64,000 bases of DNA from Akkermansia muciniphila (GTDB lineage Bacteria; Verrucomicrobiota; Verrucomicrobiia; Verrucomicrobiales; Akkermansiaceae): contig CAMCUY010000001.1 of NCBI GenBank assembly GCA_945879075.1, forward strand, positions 1-64,000, in the 5' to 3' direction. The notes below the pieces were generated by a model. It did not search any database, was not told where the DNA came from, and worked only from the letters and a program-made list of their open reading frames with translations. Shown here in pieces: positions 1,013 through 12,292 of this stretch (position 1 is its first letter; every line of letters starts with the position of its first letter). Made by a program: the position numbers and the translations under genes.

Positions 1013-1088
1013 TGGTGGAGCGTAGCGGATTCGAACCGCTGACCCCTTGCATGCCATGCAAGTGCTCTACCAACTGAGCTAACGCCCC
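1013..1088 (-). tRNA. tRNA-Ala (anticodon GGC)
   Basis: The reverse complement begins GGGGCGTTAGCTCAGTTGG and ends with an encoded CCA. The acceptor stem pairs GGGGCGT with ACGCTCC, including one G-U. The anticodon stem CTTGC/GCAAG encloses the loop ATGGCAT, giving anticodon GGC, and the T arm holds GGTTCGAATCC. All cloverleaf arms are present in 76 nt. The neighbouring IS256 remnant and decayed ORF suggest this tRNA lies in a region of past insertion. Confidence 0.95.
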
Positions 1089-1548: not shown

Positions 1549-2310
1549 TCAGCCTCCCTGCAACACCTCGACCCCGCGGTTCTGCAATTGCTCGATGAAC
1601 GTCGGATCGGCCGCTTTGTCGGTGACTAGGCAGCTCAGATCGGCGATGTCCGCGAAGAAGAAGGCAGCTTTCTGCCCGAGTTTGGAATGGTCTGCCAGGA
1701 AGACGACATCCTCCGCGTTGGCGATGACCCGCTCCTTGAAAGCGGCTTGGCGGGCATTGCTCTCGCTGACGCCGCGCCCGAGGTGGAGGCCGTTTCCCGA
1801 GAAGAACATGCGGTGGATGTTATAACGTTGCAGTGACTTTTCCGCCGTTAGACCGATGAATGACCGGGACTTGGGGTCGAACAGGCCACCGGTGCAGATG
1901 AGGTCGAGATTCGGACGGTCAGAGAGGGCGGTGAAGACGTTGAGCGCGTTGGTCAGGATGGTGAGTGGGAGGTCGGGGAGAAACTCGGTGAGGGTCAGGA
2001 CGGTGGAGCTGGCATCGAGGAAGATGGTTTCATTCGCCTGGATACGGCCGACGGCGAGACGGGCGATAGACAGTTTTTCTTCCCGGCGGACCGCTTGCCG
2101 CTCGGTGAAGGGGAGGTCTTCGCGGATCCGCCCGGGCGGAATCGCACCGCCGTGGGTGCGGAGAAGTTCGCCGCGTTTTTCGAACATTTCGAAGTCCTTG
2201 CGGATAGTTTCGACAGTCACGCCCAGTTCCACGGCTGTCTCAGCGGTGCGGAGGGAACCTGCTTTCAGGAGAAGTTCTAGGATGCGGCGGTGTCGATCGA
2301 TCGTCAGCAT
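1549..2310 (-). CDS. DeoR/GlpR-family transcriptional regulator of the adjacent aldolase operon
   Basis: An N-terminal DeoR winged helix-turn-helix is clear (RHRRILELLLKAGSLRTAET, then VTVETIRKDFEMFEKRGELLRTHGGA), followed by a DeoR C-terminal sugar-phosphate sensing domain (FLDASSTVLTLTEFLP, LICTGGLFDP, VVFLADHSKLG). The total of about 253 aa is normal for the family. I chose the ATG at 2310 (MLTIDRHRR) over the track start at 2340 because the best minus-strand -10 candidate (AATAAT, 2344-2339) overlaps the upstream ATG. The gene is divergent from the class II aldolase across 83 bp containing a perfect palindrome, so it most likely represses that operon and itself. The inducer is probably a phosphorylated deoxysugar or its breakdown product (inference). 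Confidence 0.88.
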   Translation of the reverse strand: MLTIDRHRRILELLLKAGSLRTAETAVELGVTVETIRKDFEMFEKRGELLRTHGGAIPPGRIREDLPFTERQAVRREEKLSIARLAVGRIQANETIFLDASSTVLTLTEFLPDLPLTILTNALNVFTALSDRPNLDLICTGGLFDPKSRSFIGLTAEKSLQRYNIHRMFFSGNGLHLGRGVSESNARQAAFKERVIANAEDVVFLADHSKLGQKAAFFFADIADLSCLVTDKAADPTFIEQLQNRGVEVLQGG

Positions 2311-2338
2311 GGTTTTGGTTTTCTGTGAATTTCTGGAC

Positions 2339-2385
2339 ATTATTGGGTTTTTTGGGTTGACCTGTCAACCCAATCCCACAAGAAT
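2339..2385. promoter_or_regulatory. Divergent promoters and a perfect palindromic operator between the deoR-type gene and the aldolase operon
   Basis: TTGGGTTGAC (2352-2361) and GTCAACCCAA (2364-2373) form a perfect 10-bp inverted repeat with a 2-bp spacer. Each arm carries a -35-like hexamer: TTGACC on the plus strand (2357-2362), 17 bp before AAGAAT (2380-2385), and TTGACA on the minus strand (2368-2363), 18 bp before AATAAT (2344-2339). A repressor bound to the palindrome would cover both -35 boxes. A further TTGGGTT half-site lies just upstream at 2343-2349. The plus-strand start point would fall about 2391-2393, nearly at the ATG at 2394. Confidence 0.6.
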
Positions 2386-2393
2386 TGGAGCAG

Positions 2394-3155
2394 ATGCCAG
2401 CAACCGAATTGATTTCCCGACTACTTGAATTGTCCCACCAGCTTGGCCGCGAGGAGAGGAAACTTGCGATTCTCGGCGAGGGAAACACCTCCGCACGGCT
2501 CTCGGACGGCACCTTCGTCGTCAAAGCGTCGGGCTCAAATCTCGCTACCCTCAGCGAGGCGGGGGTGGCTGAGTGCCGATTTGAAAAACTCCTGCCGCTG
2601 ATGGCGGAAGGTGAAATGACGGACGCCGCCATCGACCAAGCGCTTTTTGATGCACGCACTTCGCCGGATGCCAAGAAGCCGTCCGTCGAGGCGATTTTCC
2701 ACAGCTATCTGCTGACACTGCCGGGTATCAACTTCGTGGGGCACACGCATCCGATCGCGGTGAACGCGCTGCTGTGCTCCCGTTATGGTCGGACTTTCGC
2801 GTCCCGCCGGATTTTCCCGGATGAAATCGTCTGTTGCGGTGTGGAGAGTGTTTTCGTGCCCTACACGGATCCGGGTCTGAAGCTCTCACAGGCGATCAAG
2901 CTTGCCGTGCAGGAATACATTTCACGCCTTTCCCGCCCACCGCGCATCATCCTTCTGGAGAACCATGGCCTGATCGCACTCGGTGCGACGCCTGAAGCGG
3001 TGCTCGCCGCAACTCTCATGGCGGTGAAGGCCGCCGAGATCTTTGCCGGGGCTGCGGCCGTTTCCGGTGAACCGCAATTTCTAACATCCTCGCAGGTGGA
3101 GCGCATCGCCGGTCGTCCAGACGAGCACTACCGGCAGAAGGCTCTCGGTCTCTAA
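2394..3155 (+). CDS. Class II aldolase/adducin family protein
   Basis: The protein has the class II aldolase fold: an N-terminal GEGNTSARLSDGTFVVKASG phosphate-binding region, a metal-binding GHTHPIAVNALL (H-x-H), and a late ENHGLIALG carrying the third metal histidine. The family includes fuculose- and rhamnulose-1-phosphate aldolases and related sugar-phosphate enzymes, which cut to dihydroxyacetone phosphate and an aldehyde. The start is taken as ATG 2394; the TTG at 2385 in the track overlaps the predicted -10 box. It is 20 bp upstream of the aldolase/SDR fusion and under the divergent DeoR-type regulator, so it probably acts on the same deoxysugar pathway. Exact substrate not determinable. 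Confidence 0.85.
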   Translation: MPATELISRLLELSHQLGREERKLAILGEGNTSARLSDGTFVVKASGSNLATLSEAGVAECRFEKLLPLMAEGEMTDAAIDQALFDARTSPDAKKPSVEAIFHSYLLTLPGINFVGHTHPIAVNALLCSRYGRTFASRRIFPDEIVCCGVESVFVPYTDPGLKLSQAIKLAVQEYISRLSRPPRIILLENHGLIALGATPEAVLAATLMAVKAAEIFAGAAAVSGEPQFLTSSQVERIAGRPDEHYRQKALGL

Positions 3156-3175: not shown

Positions 3176-5368
3176 ATGTCCAAGTACAAACACGTCAATT
3201 TCCTCTGGGACGATGCCAAAGCCGCTTCGTTTGATCCAGTGGGCCGCCTAATTTACCGCTCCAACCTGCTCGGCAGTGATCAACGCATCACCAATACCGG
3301 CGGTGGGAACACCTCTTCGAAAATCATGGAGAAGGACCCGCTCACCGGCGAGTCCGTGGAGGTTCTCTGGGTGAAAGGCTCCGGTGGTGACCTCCGCACC
3401 AGCTCGCGGGAGAACTTCTCATCACTTTACCAGAATAAGCTGATAGGGCTCCAGGAAATCTATGCAGCCCGTCCGGACAAGGGACTTAAATCACAGGCGG
3501 AGGATGACATGGTGGGCATGTTTTCACACGCCACCTTCAATCTGAATCCGCGCGCGTCCTCCATCGACACCACGCTGCACGGCTTCCTGCCGGGCAAGCA
3601 CGTCGACCACATGCACCCGAACGCGATCATCGCCATCGCCGCTTCGCAAAACCGCGAGAAGCTCACGCAGGAGATCTTCGGCGGCGAGATGGCCTACGTG
3701 CCATGGATGCGCCCGGGATTCGAACTCGGTCTAGCGATGCAGGAAATCGCGAAGAACCAGCCGAACGTGAAGGCGATCATGATGGGTCAACACGGATTCA
3801 TTTCTTGGGATGATGACGAGAAGACCTGCTACAAACACACTCTCGATTTCATCGAAACCGCCGCCAACTACATTGAGGCGAAATACGCGGCCAAGGGTGG
3901 CGATGCCACGGCATTCGGCGGGCAGAAGTATGCCACGCTTGAGGTGGAGAAGCGCGAGGCCATCCTTGCTGCGATCCTGCCTTGGCTCCGCGGCCAGGTT
4001 TCCAAGGAGAAGCGTTTCGTCGGCACCATGCAAGATGACAAGAAGATCCTGCTTTTCGCAAACTCGCATGACGCCGTTCGCTTGGCGGAACTTGGCACCA
4101 GCTGCCCGGACCATTTCCTGCGCACGAAGATCAAGCCGCTCTATGTGGATTGGAATCCGCAGGCAGAGGATGCTGCTGCGCTGAAAGACAAGCTGGCCGC
4201 AGGTCTGGAAGGATACCGCGAGGATTACGCGGAGTACTACTCGCTCTGCAAGCACGACAATTCGCCGGCCCAGCGTGATCCAAATCCTACGGTCGTTCTC
4301 ATCCCCGGCATCGGCATGATTACCTGGGGCAAGGACAAATCCGAGAGCCGCGTCACTGCGGAGTTCTATAACTGTGCTGTCGAGGTCATGCGCGGAGCGG
4401 AGGCGATCGACACCTACGTGTCGCTTCCCCAACAGGAGGCGTTCGATATCGAATACTGGCTGCTGGAAGAGGCCAAGCTCAAGCGCATGCCTGCGGAGAA
4501 GGAGTTGGCCCGGCAGGTGATCATCGTCATCGGCGCAGGTTCTGGTATTGGCAAGGAGACCGCCCACCGCCTCGTCAAGGAAGGAGCGCACATCGTGTGT
4601 GTCGATTTGAACGAAGAAGCGGCAAAGGCGACGGCCAAGGAAATCGCCGACAAGTATGGCGTCGGTATCGGTGTGGCTGGAACCGGGCTCTCCAATTGTG
4701 GACCAGCCATCGGACTCGCTGCCAATATCACTGACCGCACGAGTATCCGCAAGATGCTCGACAATGTCTCGCTCTCCTACGGCGGCTTCGATTCGATTTG
4801 CGTCACCGCCGGGATTTTTGTGCCGAGCGACACCACCGGGCACATTTCTGATGACAAGTGGGCACTCACCTTCGCCATCAATGTGAGCGGCAGCTACTTC
4901 GTCGCGGACGAGGCATACAAGACCTGGAAAGAACAAGGTCTGCGCGGCAATCTTGTTCTAACCACAAGCGCCAACGCCGCTGTCGCGAAAAAGGGCTCTG
5001 TCGCTTACGACGTATCCAAGGCTGCCGCAAACCATCTGGTCCGCGAGCTTGCGATCGAACTCTCGCCATTGGTCCGCGTGAACGGTGTGGCTCCGGCAAC
5101 CGTCGTGCAAGGCTCCGCGATGTTTCCGCGGGATCGGGTGATCGGCTCACTTGCGAAGTACGCGATTCCCTACACCGAAGATGAAGCGACGGAATCGCTG
5201 GTGAGCAAGCTCGCGCAGTTCTACGCGGATCGCACGCTCACCAAGAGCCCGATCACGCCTGCGGATCAGGCAGAGGCTTATTTCCTCCTCGTGTCAGGAC
5301 GCCTTAGCAAGACCACCGGGCAAGTCGTTACCGTGGACGGCGGTCTGCACGAAGCGTTTTTGCGCTGA
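3176..5368 (+). CDS. rhaD: Bifunctional rhamnulose-1-phosphate aldolase / lactaldehyde-type short-chain dehydrogenase
   Basis: The 730-aa protein joins an N-terminal class II aldolase (TLHGFLPGKHVDHMHPNA with the H-x-H metal ligands, later MGQHGFISWDDD) to a C-terminal short-chain dehydrogenase starting near residue 440 (VIIVIGAGSGIGKETAHRL Rossmann motif, catalytic YDVSKAAANHL, final TGQVVTVDGG). This architecture is the known RhaD aldolase/alcohol dehydrogenase fusion (also called RhaE or RhaEW), which splits L-rhamnulose-1-phosphate into dihydroxyacetone phosphate and L-lactaldehyde and oxidises the lactaldehyde. It is probably cotranscribed with the class II aldolase. No rhamnose isomerase, kinase or transporter is in the window. 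A role on L-fucose intermediates cannot be excluded. Confidence 0.88.
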   Translation: MSKYKHVNFLWDDAKAASFDPVGRLIYRSNLLGSDQRITNTGGGNTSSKIMEKDPLTGESVEVLWVKGSGGDLRTSSRENFSSLYQNKLIGLQEIYAARPDKGLKSQAEDDMVGMFSHATFNLNPRASSIDTTLHGFLPGKHVDHMHPNAIIAIAASQNREKLTQEIFGGEMAYVPWMRPGFELGLAMQEIAKNQPNVKAIMMGQHGFISWDDDEKTCYKHTLDFIETAANYIEAKYAAKGGDATAFGGQKYATLEVEKREAILAAILPWLRGQVSKEKRFVGTMQDDKKILLFANSHDAVRLAELGTSCPDHFLRTKIKPLYVDWNPQAEDAAALKDKLAAGLEGYREDYAEYYSLCKHDNSPAQRDPNPTVVLIPGIGMITWGKDKSESRVTAEFYNCAVEVMRGAEAIDTYVSLPQQEAFDIEYWLLEEAKLKRMPAEKELARQVIIVIGAGSGIGKETAHRLVKEGAHIVCVDLNEEAAKATAKEIADKYGVGIGVAGTGLSNCGPAIGLAANITDRTSIRKMLDNVSLSYGGFDSICVTAGIFVPSDTTGHISDDKWALTFAINVSGSYFVADEAYKTWKEQGLRGNLVLTTSANAAVAKKGSVAYDVSKAAANHLVRELAIELSPLVRVNGVAPATVVQGSAMFPRDRVIGSLAKYAIPYTEDEATESLVSKLAQFYADRTLTKSPITPADQAEAYFLLVSGRLSKTTGQVVTVDGGLHEAFLR

Positions 5369-5499: not shown

Positions 5500-5823
5500 G
5501 TGACGAGCATGACATCTCGTTCAAGTCCGTGCAAGGAATGGAGCGTCGAGGTGAGTTGGAACGCTGCCGTGAATGCCGCGCTCGACACGGTGAAAAGCCT
5601 GATCACGCCGACTCCGGCCGGGGACTGGCATTCCGTCGCGGTCTGCTCGGACGGTTCATATGGCATCGAAAAAGGCCTCAGCGCCTCGATGCCGATCCGC
5701 ACCCTTGCGAACGGCAATTGGGAAGTCGTCCAAGGTCTGCCGATCGACGCCTTCAGCCAGGAAAAAATCGATCTCACTATCAGCGAACTCAAAGAAGAGC
5801 GCGACGCGGTGAAAAGCTTTTGA
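5500..5823 (+). pseudogene. C-terminal remnant of a malate dehydrogenase
   Basis: From about base 5550 the translation reads NAAVNAALDTVKSLITPTP, AGDWHSVAVCSDGSYGIEKG, then IRTLANGNWEVVQGLPID, AFSQEKIDLTISELKEERD and AVKSF. This is the C-terminal substrate-binding end of a NAD-dependent malate dehydrogenase of the MalDH type (SDGSYG and the NWEVVQGLxIDxFSxxKID region). The N-terminal Rossmann domain and catalytic Arg/His segments (about two thirds of the protein) are missing, and the first 15-20 codons of this ORF do not look like the family. It is a truncated gene; whether the remaining ORF is translated is unknown. Confidence 0.78.
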
Positions 5824-6558: not shown

Positions 6559-7419
6559 TTACGCGCCGATGGGATGCCAAGTGGTTTTGGCTTCGAGGTG
6601 GTCGCGGATTTCATAGAGGCCCTGGGCGTTTTCCGCGAACCAGTCGGTGGGGGTTTCGGCAGGAATGAGCTTGAGGCGCTTGACGCTGTCAGCGGCTCCG
6701 GTCTGGAGGGTTTTGCGCTCCTCGAGATTTCCGACGACGGCGAGTCCTCGCAAATGGGCGTGAGTCACGAAGGTCGGGATGAGCTCGTCGCGCCGGCCGG
6801 TGAGTAGATTGACGACTCCGCCGGGCAGGTCGCTGGTGGCGAGCATCTCGCCCAGCAGGATGGACGGATAGGGTTGCGTGGAAGAGGCGAGCGCGACGAC
6901 GGAGTTGCCGCTGGTGATGGCTGGCAGGATGAGCGAGAGCAGGCCTAGCAGCGGTGCCTCGTCCGGCGCGATGATGCCGATGATGCCCATTGGCTCGGTG
7001 ACGGTGAAATTGAAATGGGGCGAGGAAACCGGGTTCACACTGCCGAGCAGGGCTTGGAATTTATCCGTCCAGCCGGCGTAGTGGACGATGCGCTCGATGC
7101 TGGCGCGGACCTCGCGCTCGGCGTCTTTTTTGGAACTGCCACCGAGGGAGATGGCATCCGTCATTTCCGCGGCGCGGGCCTCCAGCATTTCCGCGAGGCG
7201 ATAGAGAATCTGCCCGCGGTTGTACGCATTGCGGGCGGACCAGCCGGGGCCGGCCTTGGCGGCGGCTTCCACGGCGTTGCGCAGGTCCTTGCGGGAACAG
7301 AGCGGGATGTTCGCGAAGAATGCGCCGCTGGCGTCGGAGAGCGGATAGACACGACCGCTCTCCGAGCGGATGAAGGCTCCGCCGACGTAGCACTTGGGGG
7401 TTTTGGTGATTCGAAGCAT
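6559..7419 (-). CDS. Aldehyde dehydrogenase-like protein without catalytic half (ALDH16 second-domain type)
   Basis: The sequence follows the N-terminal, NAD-binding part of an aldehyde dehydrogenase (FNFTVTEPMGIIGIIAPDEA, LPAITSGNSVVALAS, then DLPGGVVNLLTG) but stops at 286 aa. It lacks the catalytic-cysteine domain and ends with a private tail (WFAENAQGLYEIRDHLEAK). Instead of the usual PWNFP it has APDEAP. A full ALDH is about 490 aa, so this is a truncated, non-catalytic paralogue. It lies 14 bp after the complete ALDH gene in the same operon; together the two equal about 780 aa, the size and layout of ALDH16, whose second domain is likewise truncated and lacks the cysteine. Probably a structural partner (inference). 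Confidence 0.8.
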   Translation of the reverse strand: MLRITKTPKCYVGGAFIRSESGRVYPLSDASGAFFANIPLCSRKDLRNAVEAAAKAGPGWSARNAYNRGQILYRLAEMLEARAAEMTDAISLGGSSKKDAEREVRASIERIVHYAGWTDKFQALLGSVNPVSSPHFNFTVTEPMGIIGIIAPDEAPLLGLLSLILPAITSGNSVVALASSTQPYPSILLGEMLATSDLPGGVVNLLTGRRDELIPTFVTHAHLRGLAVVGNLEERKTLQTGAADSVKRLKLIPAETPTDWFAENAQGLYEIRDHLEAKTTWHPIGA

Positions 7420-7433
7420 GATGAATATGGGAC

Positions 7434-8918
7434 TTATATCAGATTTGCGTAGTCGAGCAGTCCTTGTTTTCCGCCTTCCCGGCCGAAGCCGGATTCCTTG
7501 TAGCCGCCGAAGGGCGAGGCGGGGTCGAATTTGTTGAACGAGTTCGCCCAGACGACGCCGGCTTTGAGCTCGGTGGACATCTTCAAAATGCGCGAGCCCT
7601 TGTCGGTCCAGACACCGGCGCTGAGGCCGTAACAGGTGTTGTTGGCTTTTTCCACGGCTTCCTCCGGCGTGCGGAAGGTGAGGATGGAGAGCACAGGCCC
7701 GAAGATTTCATCGCGGGCGATGCGGTGGCTCATGGCGACGTTGGAGAAGAGGGTGGGCGGGAAGTAGAAGCCTTTTGCCGGGAGCTTGCTGGCGGCCTGG
7801 TAGAGATCCGCGCCCTCGGCGACTCCGCAGGCGACGAGCTCGCGGATGCGGTCGAGCTGGGCTTGCGAGTTGATGGCACCGACGTCGGTGTTCTTGTCGA
7901 GCGGGTCGCCGGTGCGGAGGGATTTGAGGCGGATCTTGAGTTTGGACAGAACTTTGTCGGCGATGGATTCCTGAACGAGCAGCCGCGATCCGGCGCAGCA
8001 GACGTGGCCTTGGTTGAAGAAGATGCCGTTGATGACGCCCTCGACGGCTTGGTCGAGCGGGGCGTCTTCGAGGACGATGTTAGCCGCTTTGCCGCCGAGT
8101 TCGAGGGTGAGGCGCTTGGCGGTTCCGGCGAGCGCGCGCTGGATGGATTTGCCAACTTCGGTGGAGCCGGTGAAGGCGATCTTCGCGGCGAGCGGGTGGT
8201 TGACCACGGCGGCTCCGGTTTCGCCCGCGCCGGTGACGATGTTGACGACACCCGGTGGCAGTCCGGCATCTTGTAAAATCGAGGCGAACTTGAGTGCGGT
8301 GATGGAAGTGGTTTCCGCAGGCTTGAGGACCACGGTGTTTCCCGTGGCGAGGGCGGGGGCGAGTTTCCACGCGAGCATCAGCAGCGGGAAATTCCACGGG
8401 ATGATCTGACCAATGACGCCCAGCGGCGCGAGCGTGCGGCCCGGAGTGACGTAGCCGAGTTTGTCCGCCCAGCCGGCGTGATAGAAGAAGTGGGCGGCGG
8501 CCATCGGCACGTCGAAGTCGCGGGATTCCTTGATCGGCTTGCCGCCGTCGAGCGTCTCGGCGACGGCGAACTCGCGGGCGCGGTCCTGCAGCAGGCGGGC
8601 GATGCGGAAGAGATATTTCGCGCGCTCGGTGCCGGGGAGTTTGCTCCATGAGGTGAACGCGGTGGCGGCGGACTGATAGGCGGCATCGACATCGGCGGCT
8701 CCGGCGACGGCGATTTCCGAGAGTTTCTCCTCGTTGCGCGGGCTGATGGAGTCGAAATAGTTGCGGGTCTTGGGCGCGACGAACTTGCCGTTGATGAACA
8801 GGCCGTAGCGCGGCTCGATGAAGGCCGGCGCGGATTCCGGAGCGGGATCGTATTCCCAGAGGTCGCCGAAGAGCAGTTCTCTGGCGTCAGGGGGGATAGG
8901 GCGTTTTGGCGAAGGCAT
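7434..8918 (-). CDS. Catalytic aldehyde dehydrogenase (ALDH16 first-domain type)
   Basis: A complete 494-aa aldehyde dehydrogenase: cofactor region APLGVIGQIIPWNFPLLMLA, LKPAETTSITAL, IAFTGSTEVGKSIQ, the catalytic glutamate motif LELGGKAANIV and the catalytic cysteine in FNQGHVCCAGSRL near residue 304, then IFGPVLSILTF and SPFGGYKESGFGREGG. It oxidises an aldehyde to the acid with NAD(P)+. The gene sits 42 bp after deoC, so acetaldehyde released by the deoxyribose-phosphate aldolase is the most likely substrate (inference). It precedes a truncated ALDH-like gene, an arrangement matching a split ALDH16 protein. Confidence 0.88.
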   Translation of the reverse strand: MPSPKRPIPPDARELLFGDLWEYDPAPESAPAFIEPRYGLFINGKFVAPKTRNYFDSISPRNEEKLSEIAVAGAADVDAAYQSAATAFTSWSKLPGTERAKYLFRIARLLQDRAREFAVAETLDGGKPIKESRDFDVPMAAAHFFYHAGWADKLGYVTPGRTLAPLGVIGQIIPWNFPLLMLAWKLAPALATGNTVVLKPAETTSITALKFASILQDAGLPPGVVNIVTGAGETGAAVVNHPLAAKIAFTGSTEVGKSIQRALAGTAKRLTLELGGKAANIVLEDAPLDQAVEGVINGIFFNQGHVCCAGSRLLVQESIADKVLSKLKIRLKSLRTGDPLDKNTDVGAINSQAQLDRIRELVACGVAEGADLYQAASKLPAKGFYFPPTLFSNVAMSHRIARDEIFGPVLSILTFRTPEEAVEKANNTCYGLSAGVWTDKGSRILKMSTELKAGVVWANSFNKFDPASPFGGYKESGFGREGGKQGLLDYANLI

Positions 8919-12244: not shown

Positions 12245-12292
12245 ATCACGCTCCCGAGTAACACTTACAAAAGTGTTACTCGGGAACGTGAT
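12245..12292. repeat. Near-perfect 22-bp inverted repeat (hairpin)
   Basis: ATCACGCTCCCGAGTAACACTT (12245-12266) and AAGTGTTACTCGGGAACGTGAT (12271-12292) are reverse complements except for one position, with a 4-nt ACAA loop. The hairpin separates the CoA-transferase remnant from the broken BrkB gene, and the BrkB reading frame runs into it and stops inside (TAA). It could be a terminator for both sides or a small palindromic mobile element; no second copy was noticed in the window. Confidence 0.7.

Follow-up and report, generated by a model that had tools for sequence, protein, structure and literature searches.

A palindrome of two putative abutting -35 boxes between a DeoR-family gene and an aldolase-rhaEW operon in Akkermansia muciniphila, at a locus where relatives carry a microcompartment operon

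A gene set comprising pduL and the genes for shell proteins, acetate kinase, aldehyde dehydrogenase and lactate/malate dehydrogenase (mdh) constitutes the PVM-type locus, which encodes a microcompartment for fucose and rhamnose (PMC4207490). In Planctomycetes and Verrucomicrobia the DeoR-family gene pvmA adjoins such an operon (PMC4207490, PMC11958385), and the P. limnophila pvmA gene and promoter (the pvmA/PpvmB pair) confer rhamnose-inducible expression (PMC11958385). DeoR-family regulators of L-rhamnose utilisation (RhaR) are also described for Chloroflexus, Rhizobium, Bacillus and Thermotoga, in several lineages together with rhaEW; these regulators fall into non-orthologous groups, and their motifs are imperfect direct repeats with a period of 10-11 bp (PMC3870299). 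Symmetric promoter DNA, finally, is found in bidirectional E. coli promoters with a shared -10 element, which allow two mutually exclusive orientations of the polymerase and whose start points are separated by 10-23 bp (PMC12825309). The present study deals with a 64-kb stretch of DNA (the window), in which a deoR gene diverges from an operon for a class II aldolase and RhaEW. The relevant features are the following, in coordinates of the window:

1549-2310, minus strand: deoR, DeoR-family regulator (PF08220 HTH_DeoR, 2.5e-13; PF00455 DeoRC, 3.6e-45)
2314-2356, plus strand: conserved T-rich tract in front of the operon -35 box, with a GG roughly every 10 bp; UP-like element or operator
2339-2344, minus strand: -10-like AATAAT of deoR, 18-nt spacer
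2352-2373, no strand: 22-bp inverted repeat, outer 5 bases of each arm species-specific
2357-2362, plus strand: candidate -35 box TTGACC of the aldolase-rhaEW operon
2357-2368, no strand: conserved core TTGAC-NN-GTCAA, read as two abutting -35 boxes from its conservation and from halves that segregate with their own genes
2363-2368, minus strand: candidate -35 box TTGACA of deoR
2380-2385, plus strand: -10-like AAGAAT of the operon, 17-nt spacer, weak
2394-3155, plus strand: class II aldolase, 253 aa, first gene of the operon (PF00596; N-terminal region alignable to relatives)
3176-5368, plus strand: rhaEW, bifunctional rhamnulose-1-phosphate aldolase/dehydrogenase, 730 aa (NF006189, TIGR02632)
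5563-5823, plus strand: C-terminal mdh stub (89.5% identical to residues 241-326 of a 329-aa protein); in relatives this lactate/malate dehydrogenase gene is the last of the microcompartment operon

The DeoR protein combines an N-terminal HTH_DeoR domain with a C-terminal DeoRC sensor domain, as expected for a sugar regulator of this family. RhaEW was recognised by NF006189 with 1095 bits (cut-off 634) and by TIGR02632 with 993 bits (cut-off 568). An L-rhamnose isomerase (RhaA; PF06134, 708 bits) is encoded elsewhere in the genome, as is a rhamnulokinase-like kinase, which with 433 bits remains under the family cut-off. Judged from this gene content, namely the aldolase, RhaEW, the isomerase and the kinase-like protein together, rhamnose is the likely substrate. 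Note that a tRNA-Ala (ggc) gene is present near the locus (1013-1088, minus strand), and that an intergenic inverted repeat, CCGAGTAACACTTACAAAAGTGTTACTCGG, at 12254-12283 is a possible terminator or regulator site.

At 2352-2373 the sequence reads TTGGGTTGAC-ct-GTCAACCCAA, with perfect 10-bp arms around a 2-nt centre that is itself non-palindromic. The palindrome described in an earlier sequence-only reading of this DNA is thus real, and re-reading of the sequence also confirmed the hexamers and the 17- and 18-bp spacings given there. The boxes were described as standing 'face-to-face'; they are located as stated, but they stand back-to-back, touching each other, with the promoters pointing apart. 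The 22-bp palindrome is the sole match at up to three mismatches both in the window and in the genome (2.39 Mb, 90% complete), in which the core TTGACNNGTCAA likewise occurs a single time. Since the window contains two more 10-bp inverted repeats with gaps of 0-10, such a repeat is not rare in 64 kb and the case for the palindrome rests on comparison with relatives. A dinucleotide-shuffle null was set aside because the pattern had been picked after being seen.

The genus was represented by 73 genomes, and 46 of them, the present one included, have a DeoR orthologue (at least 70% identity); in 43 of these 46 genomes deoR is divergent from an operon. The core is intact in 39 of the 43 divergent loci; a palindrome between the orthologous genes of relatives, the absence of which the sequence-only reading had named as evidence against itself, is thus present as far as the core is concerned. 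All ten defined positions are invariant in 32 distinct sequences, an invariance that follows from the construction of the search as these sequences were chosen for having the core; variation is seen in the two central bases and in the flanks. A genus-wide search for the core plus its downstream context yielded 33 matches, 30 of them at deoR; with the pattern reversed as a control there were none. Orthologous aldolase loci with upstream sequence numbered 79, mostly from Opitutae; only five of them have the core, and these are the ones with a DeoR orthologue. The outer arms TTGGG/CCCAA are confined to this species, and in 23 of the 37 distinct loci the arms are no longer than 5 bp, which rules out the outer arms as a conserved operator. 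The expectation that the same palindrome would also precede other rhamnose genes did not hold: the core is absent near rhaA and near the kinase gene in this genome. As a rule there is one core site per genome, and no multi-site regulon was detected.

The identity of the two halves is indicated by loci in which the genes have become separated. In G017 and G025 (L199/L220 and L211/L222), deoR and the microcompartment operon are located on different contigs with one palindrome half each: the operon promoter features TTGACC or TTGACG with unrelated sequence behind it, and that of deoR has kept GGTCAA and lost TTGAC. In G081 and G092, for which the DeoR search across the 73 genomes returned no orthologue, the operon promoter has kept TTGAC and lost GTCAA. 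Within this sample of four operon promoters and two deoR promoters each half follows its own gene. This is in agreement with the conservation of the core and supports the assignment, already proposed from the sequence, of the halves as -35 boxes of two divergent promoters; with this identity a dimer operator is unnecessary to explain the core. The T-rich tract with its GG pairs is kept, in whole or in part, at three of the four operon promoters without a neighbouring deoR. The -10 boxes are weak, those on the operon side most of all (mean 3.1/6 compared to 2.4 expected).

In 38 of the 43 divergent loci the ATG of the operon is positioned 37-40 nt from the first base of TTGAC, regardless of whether pduL or the aldolase gene comes first. 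The five exceptions (60-105 nt) all have rhaEW directly behind the promoter, and in the rearranged loci, as determined by eye, the ATG follows 39-41 nt from the -35 box. Assuming a normal spacer, the operon transcript would start 1-5 nt before the ATG; the predicted start points are ≈2391-2393 for the operon and ≈2332 for deoR, about 60 bp apart. Shine-Dalgarno-like bases are missing at nearly all operon starts of the 43 loci. The fixed distance to the ATG together with the near lack of Shine-Dalgarno bases suggests that a near-leaderless operon mRNA (5' end within ≈8 nt of the start codon) is probably conserved, and the earlier proposal of such an mRNA for the present aldolase gene is thus probable. 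The aldolase gene has a GGAG 3 nt before its ATG, which would be inside the mRNA if transcription began earlier. Akkermansia and IMCC26134 are among the Verrucomicrobia listed as Shine-Dalgarno-scarce (PMC10783764). At the first start codons across the window, TTGAC is infrequent and Shine-Dalgarno-like sites number 2 in 40, start calls being too rough for these values to carry weight. A start of DeoR at 2310 instead of 2340, also suggested before, is confirmed by the relatives: in 31 other loci there is no alternative start from the core up to the codon equivalent to 2310, and seven of them have an in-frame stop in this interval.

The most interesting point, which is outside the finding of the sequence-only reading, is an exchange of the operon, with the divergent promoter staying as it was. 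The core precedes pduL and the genes for shell proteins, acetate kinase, aldehyde dehydrogenase and lactate/malate dehydrogenase in most of the genus members that have a DeoR orthologue. The DNA match to one such relative, G061, covers deoR and the promoter and breaks off at 2381; it sets in again at 5566, inside mdh, and continues with ≈91% identity to 9283; in between, aldolase-rhaEW occupies the place of ≈7 kb of microcompartment genes. The mdh stub at 5563-5823 is the scar of the lost microcompartment operon. Stubs of this kind were sought in the other replaced loci and none was found, so the window has the only one. Neither this genome nor the ten others with aldolase/rhaEW behind deoR have BMC-domain genes, which are present in genomes with pduL behind deoR. 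The replaced loci of these eleven genomes are scattered on the DeoR tree: the AU test rejected a single clade (p=0.009), and the scatter, which transfer of deoR itself could mimic in part, requires a minimum of seven label changes.

Orthologous aldolase and rhaEW genes are also present in loci of Opitutae (L034, L049, L084 and others) that lack both a DeoR orthologue and the palindrome and are often located beside a different DeoR protein (≈26-33% identical). Such loci are possible donors of the replacement. Downstream in the window (6559-8918), two adjacent aldehyde dehydrogenase-like genes are syntenic with deoC and ubiE as in G061; the second one (6559-7419) codes for only 286 aa and lacks the C-terminal half.

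The site at which the repressor binds allows for different readings. The palindrome itself might be the DeoR operator, with one dimer over both -35 boxes silencing both genes, a possibility that we regard with some doubt. The two halves remain 2 nt apart in 39 of 43 divergent loci, the core decays where deoR and operon part, TT/AA at ±4-5 are symmetric and the first three flanking pairs have an excess of complementarity (46 vs 37.8, p=0.044), all of which would suit a bound dimer. However, only the 5-bp arms are conserved, and variants of the core occur: the spacing is shortened from 2 to 1 nt in G030 (TTGAC-T-GTCAA, both boxes intact) and altered in the divergent locus of G013, and G083 and G059 have lost the right arm but retain both deoR and pduL. 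Each half, moreover, survives alone exactly at the expected -35 position, and direct repeats make up the DeoR-type RhaR motifs known to date (PMC3870299). The 10-11 bp periodicity of these motifs (PMC3870299) and the GG columns of the T-rich tract, conserved with 0.9-1.8 bits at -20/-19 and -10/-9, would suit another reading. We tentatively consider that DeoR binds to the T-rich direct repeats at 2314-2356 and/or to an inverted CCAACnAAACAAAG-like pair near each -10 box, leaving the palindrome as a pair of -35 boxes only. The GG/T tract, however, persists at G092, where no DeoR orthologue was detected, and it may be an intrinsic promoter element. As for the inverted pair, CCAAC..AAAG matches in 13 of 14 positions at the consensus level (p=0.03), but the excess per locus after composition is small (10.3 vs 9.8), and an operator formed by inverted CCAACnAAACAAAG near both -10 boxes was rejected as weak after this control.

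A chance palindrome from two unrelated -35 boxes that share no function would be compatible with the two other short-gap 10-bp inverted repeats of the window and with the lack of conservation of the outer arms. It is nevertheless very improbable, as the abutting arrangement is kept across a genus in which the DeoR proteins differ by up to 30%.

The reading that we favour and, taken as a whole, consider probable is that of a compact divergent promoter pair with a near-leaderless operon, repression by DeoR and a module older than the genes it drives. The conservation of the core, the -35 identity of its halves, the fixed ATG distance and the replacement emerge from the comparison of loci. In the proposed mechanism deoR and the operon have abutting -35 boxes, TTGAC-NN-GTCAA, which would thereby form the palindrome. 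We infer that two RNA polymerases cannot occupy these boxes together, since they abut, and that the operon transcript begins at the ATG or a few bases before it. DeoR, a putative counterpart of PvmA, most likely represses the operon and itself within a region of ≈90 bp, and a metabolite of the rhamnose pathway would release it. Ancestrally the module presumably controlled a PVM-type microcompartment operon, which was replaced by aldolase-rhaEW here. A more far-reaching idea, which we put forward as speculation and rather unlikely, is that of a portable socket, a module of regulator and promoter whose -35 boxes abut and whose start codon is built in; organelle and free-enzyme operons for the same sugar would have been exchanged behind it several times, and polymerase competition would tie the output of the regulator to that of the operon.

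Most members of the genus resemble the known PVM-type loci in that deoR adjoins the operon from pduL to mdh. In contrast to those loci, deoR is divergent here, and aldolase-rhaEW has taken over the site of the microcompartment operon, which is gone; an interval of 46 bp lies between pvmA and pvmB of P. limnophila, where pvmA may belong to the operon. A pduL/BMC shell operon beside deoR, the hallmark of PvmA, is thus present in relatives and missing in this genome. The locus illustrates how soluble RhaEW repeatedly took the place of a microcompartment pathway, with the regulator and the promoter staying the same, and this allows one to ask when lactaldehyde metabolism needs a shell and when it does not. 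With the RhaR regulons it has a DeoR-family regulator of L-rhamnose genes and, for several lineages, rhaEW in common, but the conserved element is here a palindrome of putative -35 boxes. It also makes a divergent promoter of Verrucomicrobiota accessible to testing, with a single 12-bp element that would contain both -35 boxes and with an operon mRNA that probably has almost no leader. As in the E. coli promoters with a shared -10 element, symmetric DNA would serve two mutually exclusive orientations of the polymerase; contrary to the situation in E. coli, the -10-like boxes are separate (2339-2344 and 2380-2385), it is the -35 boxes that abut, and the start points are predicted to be far more distant from each other.
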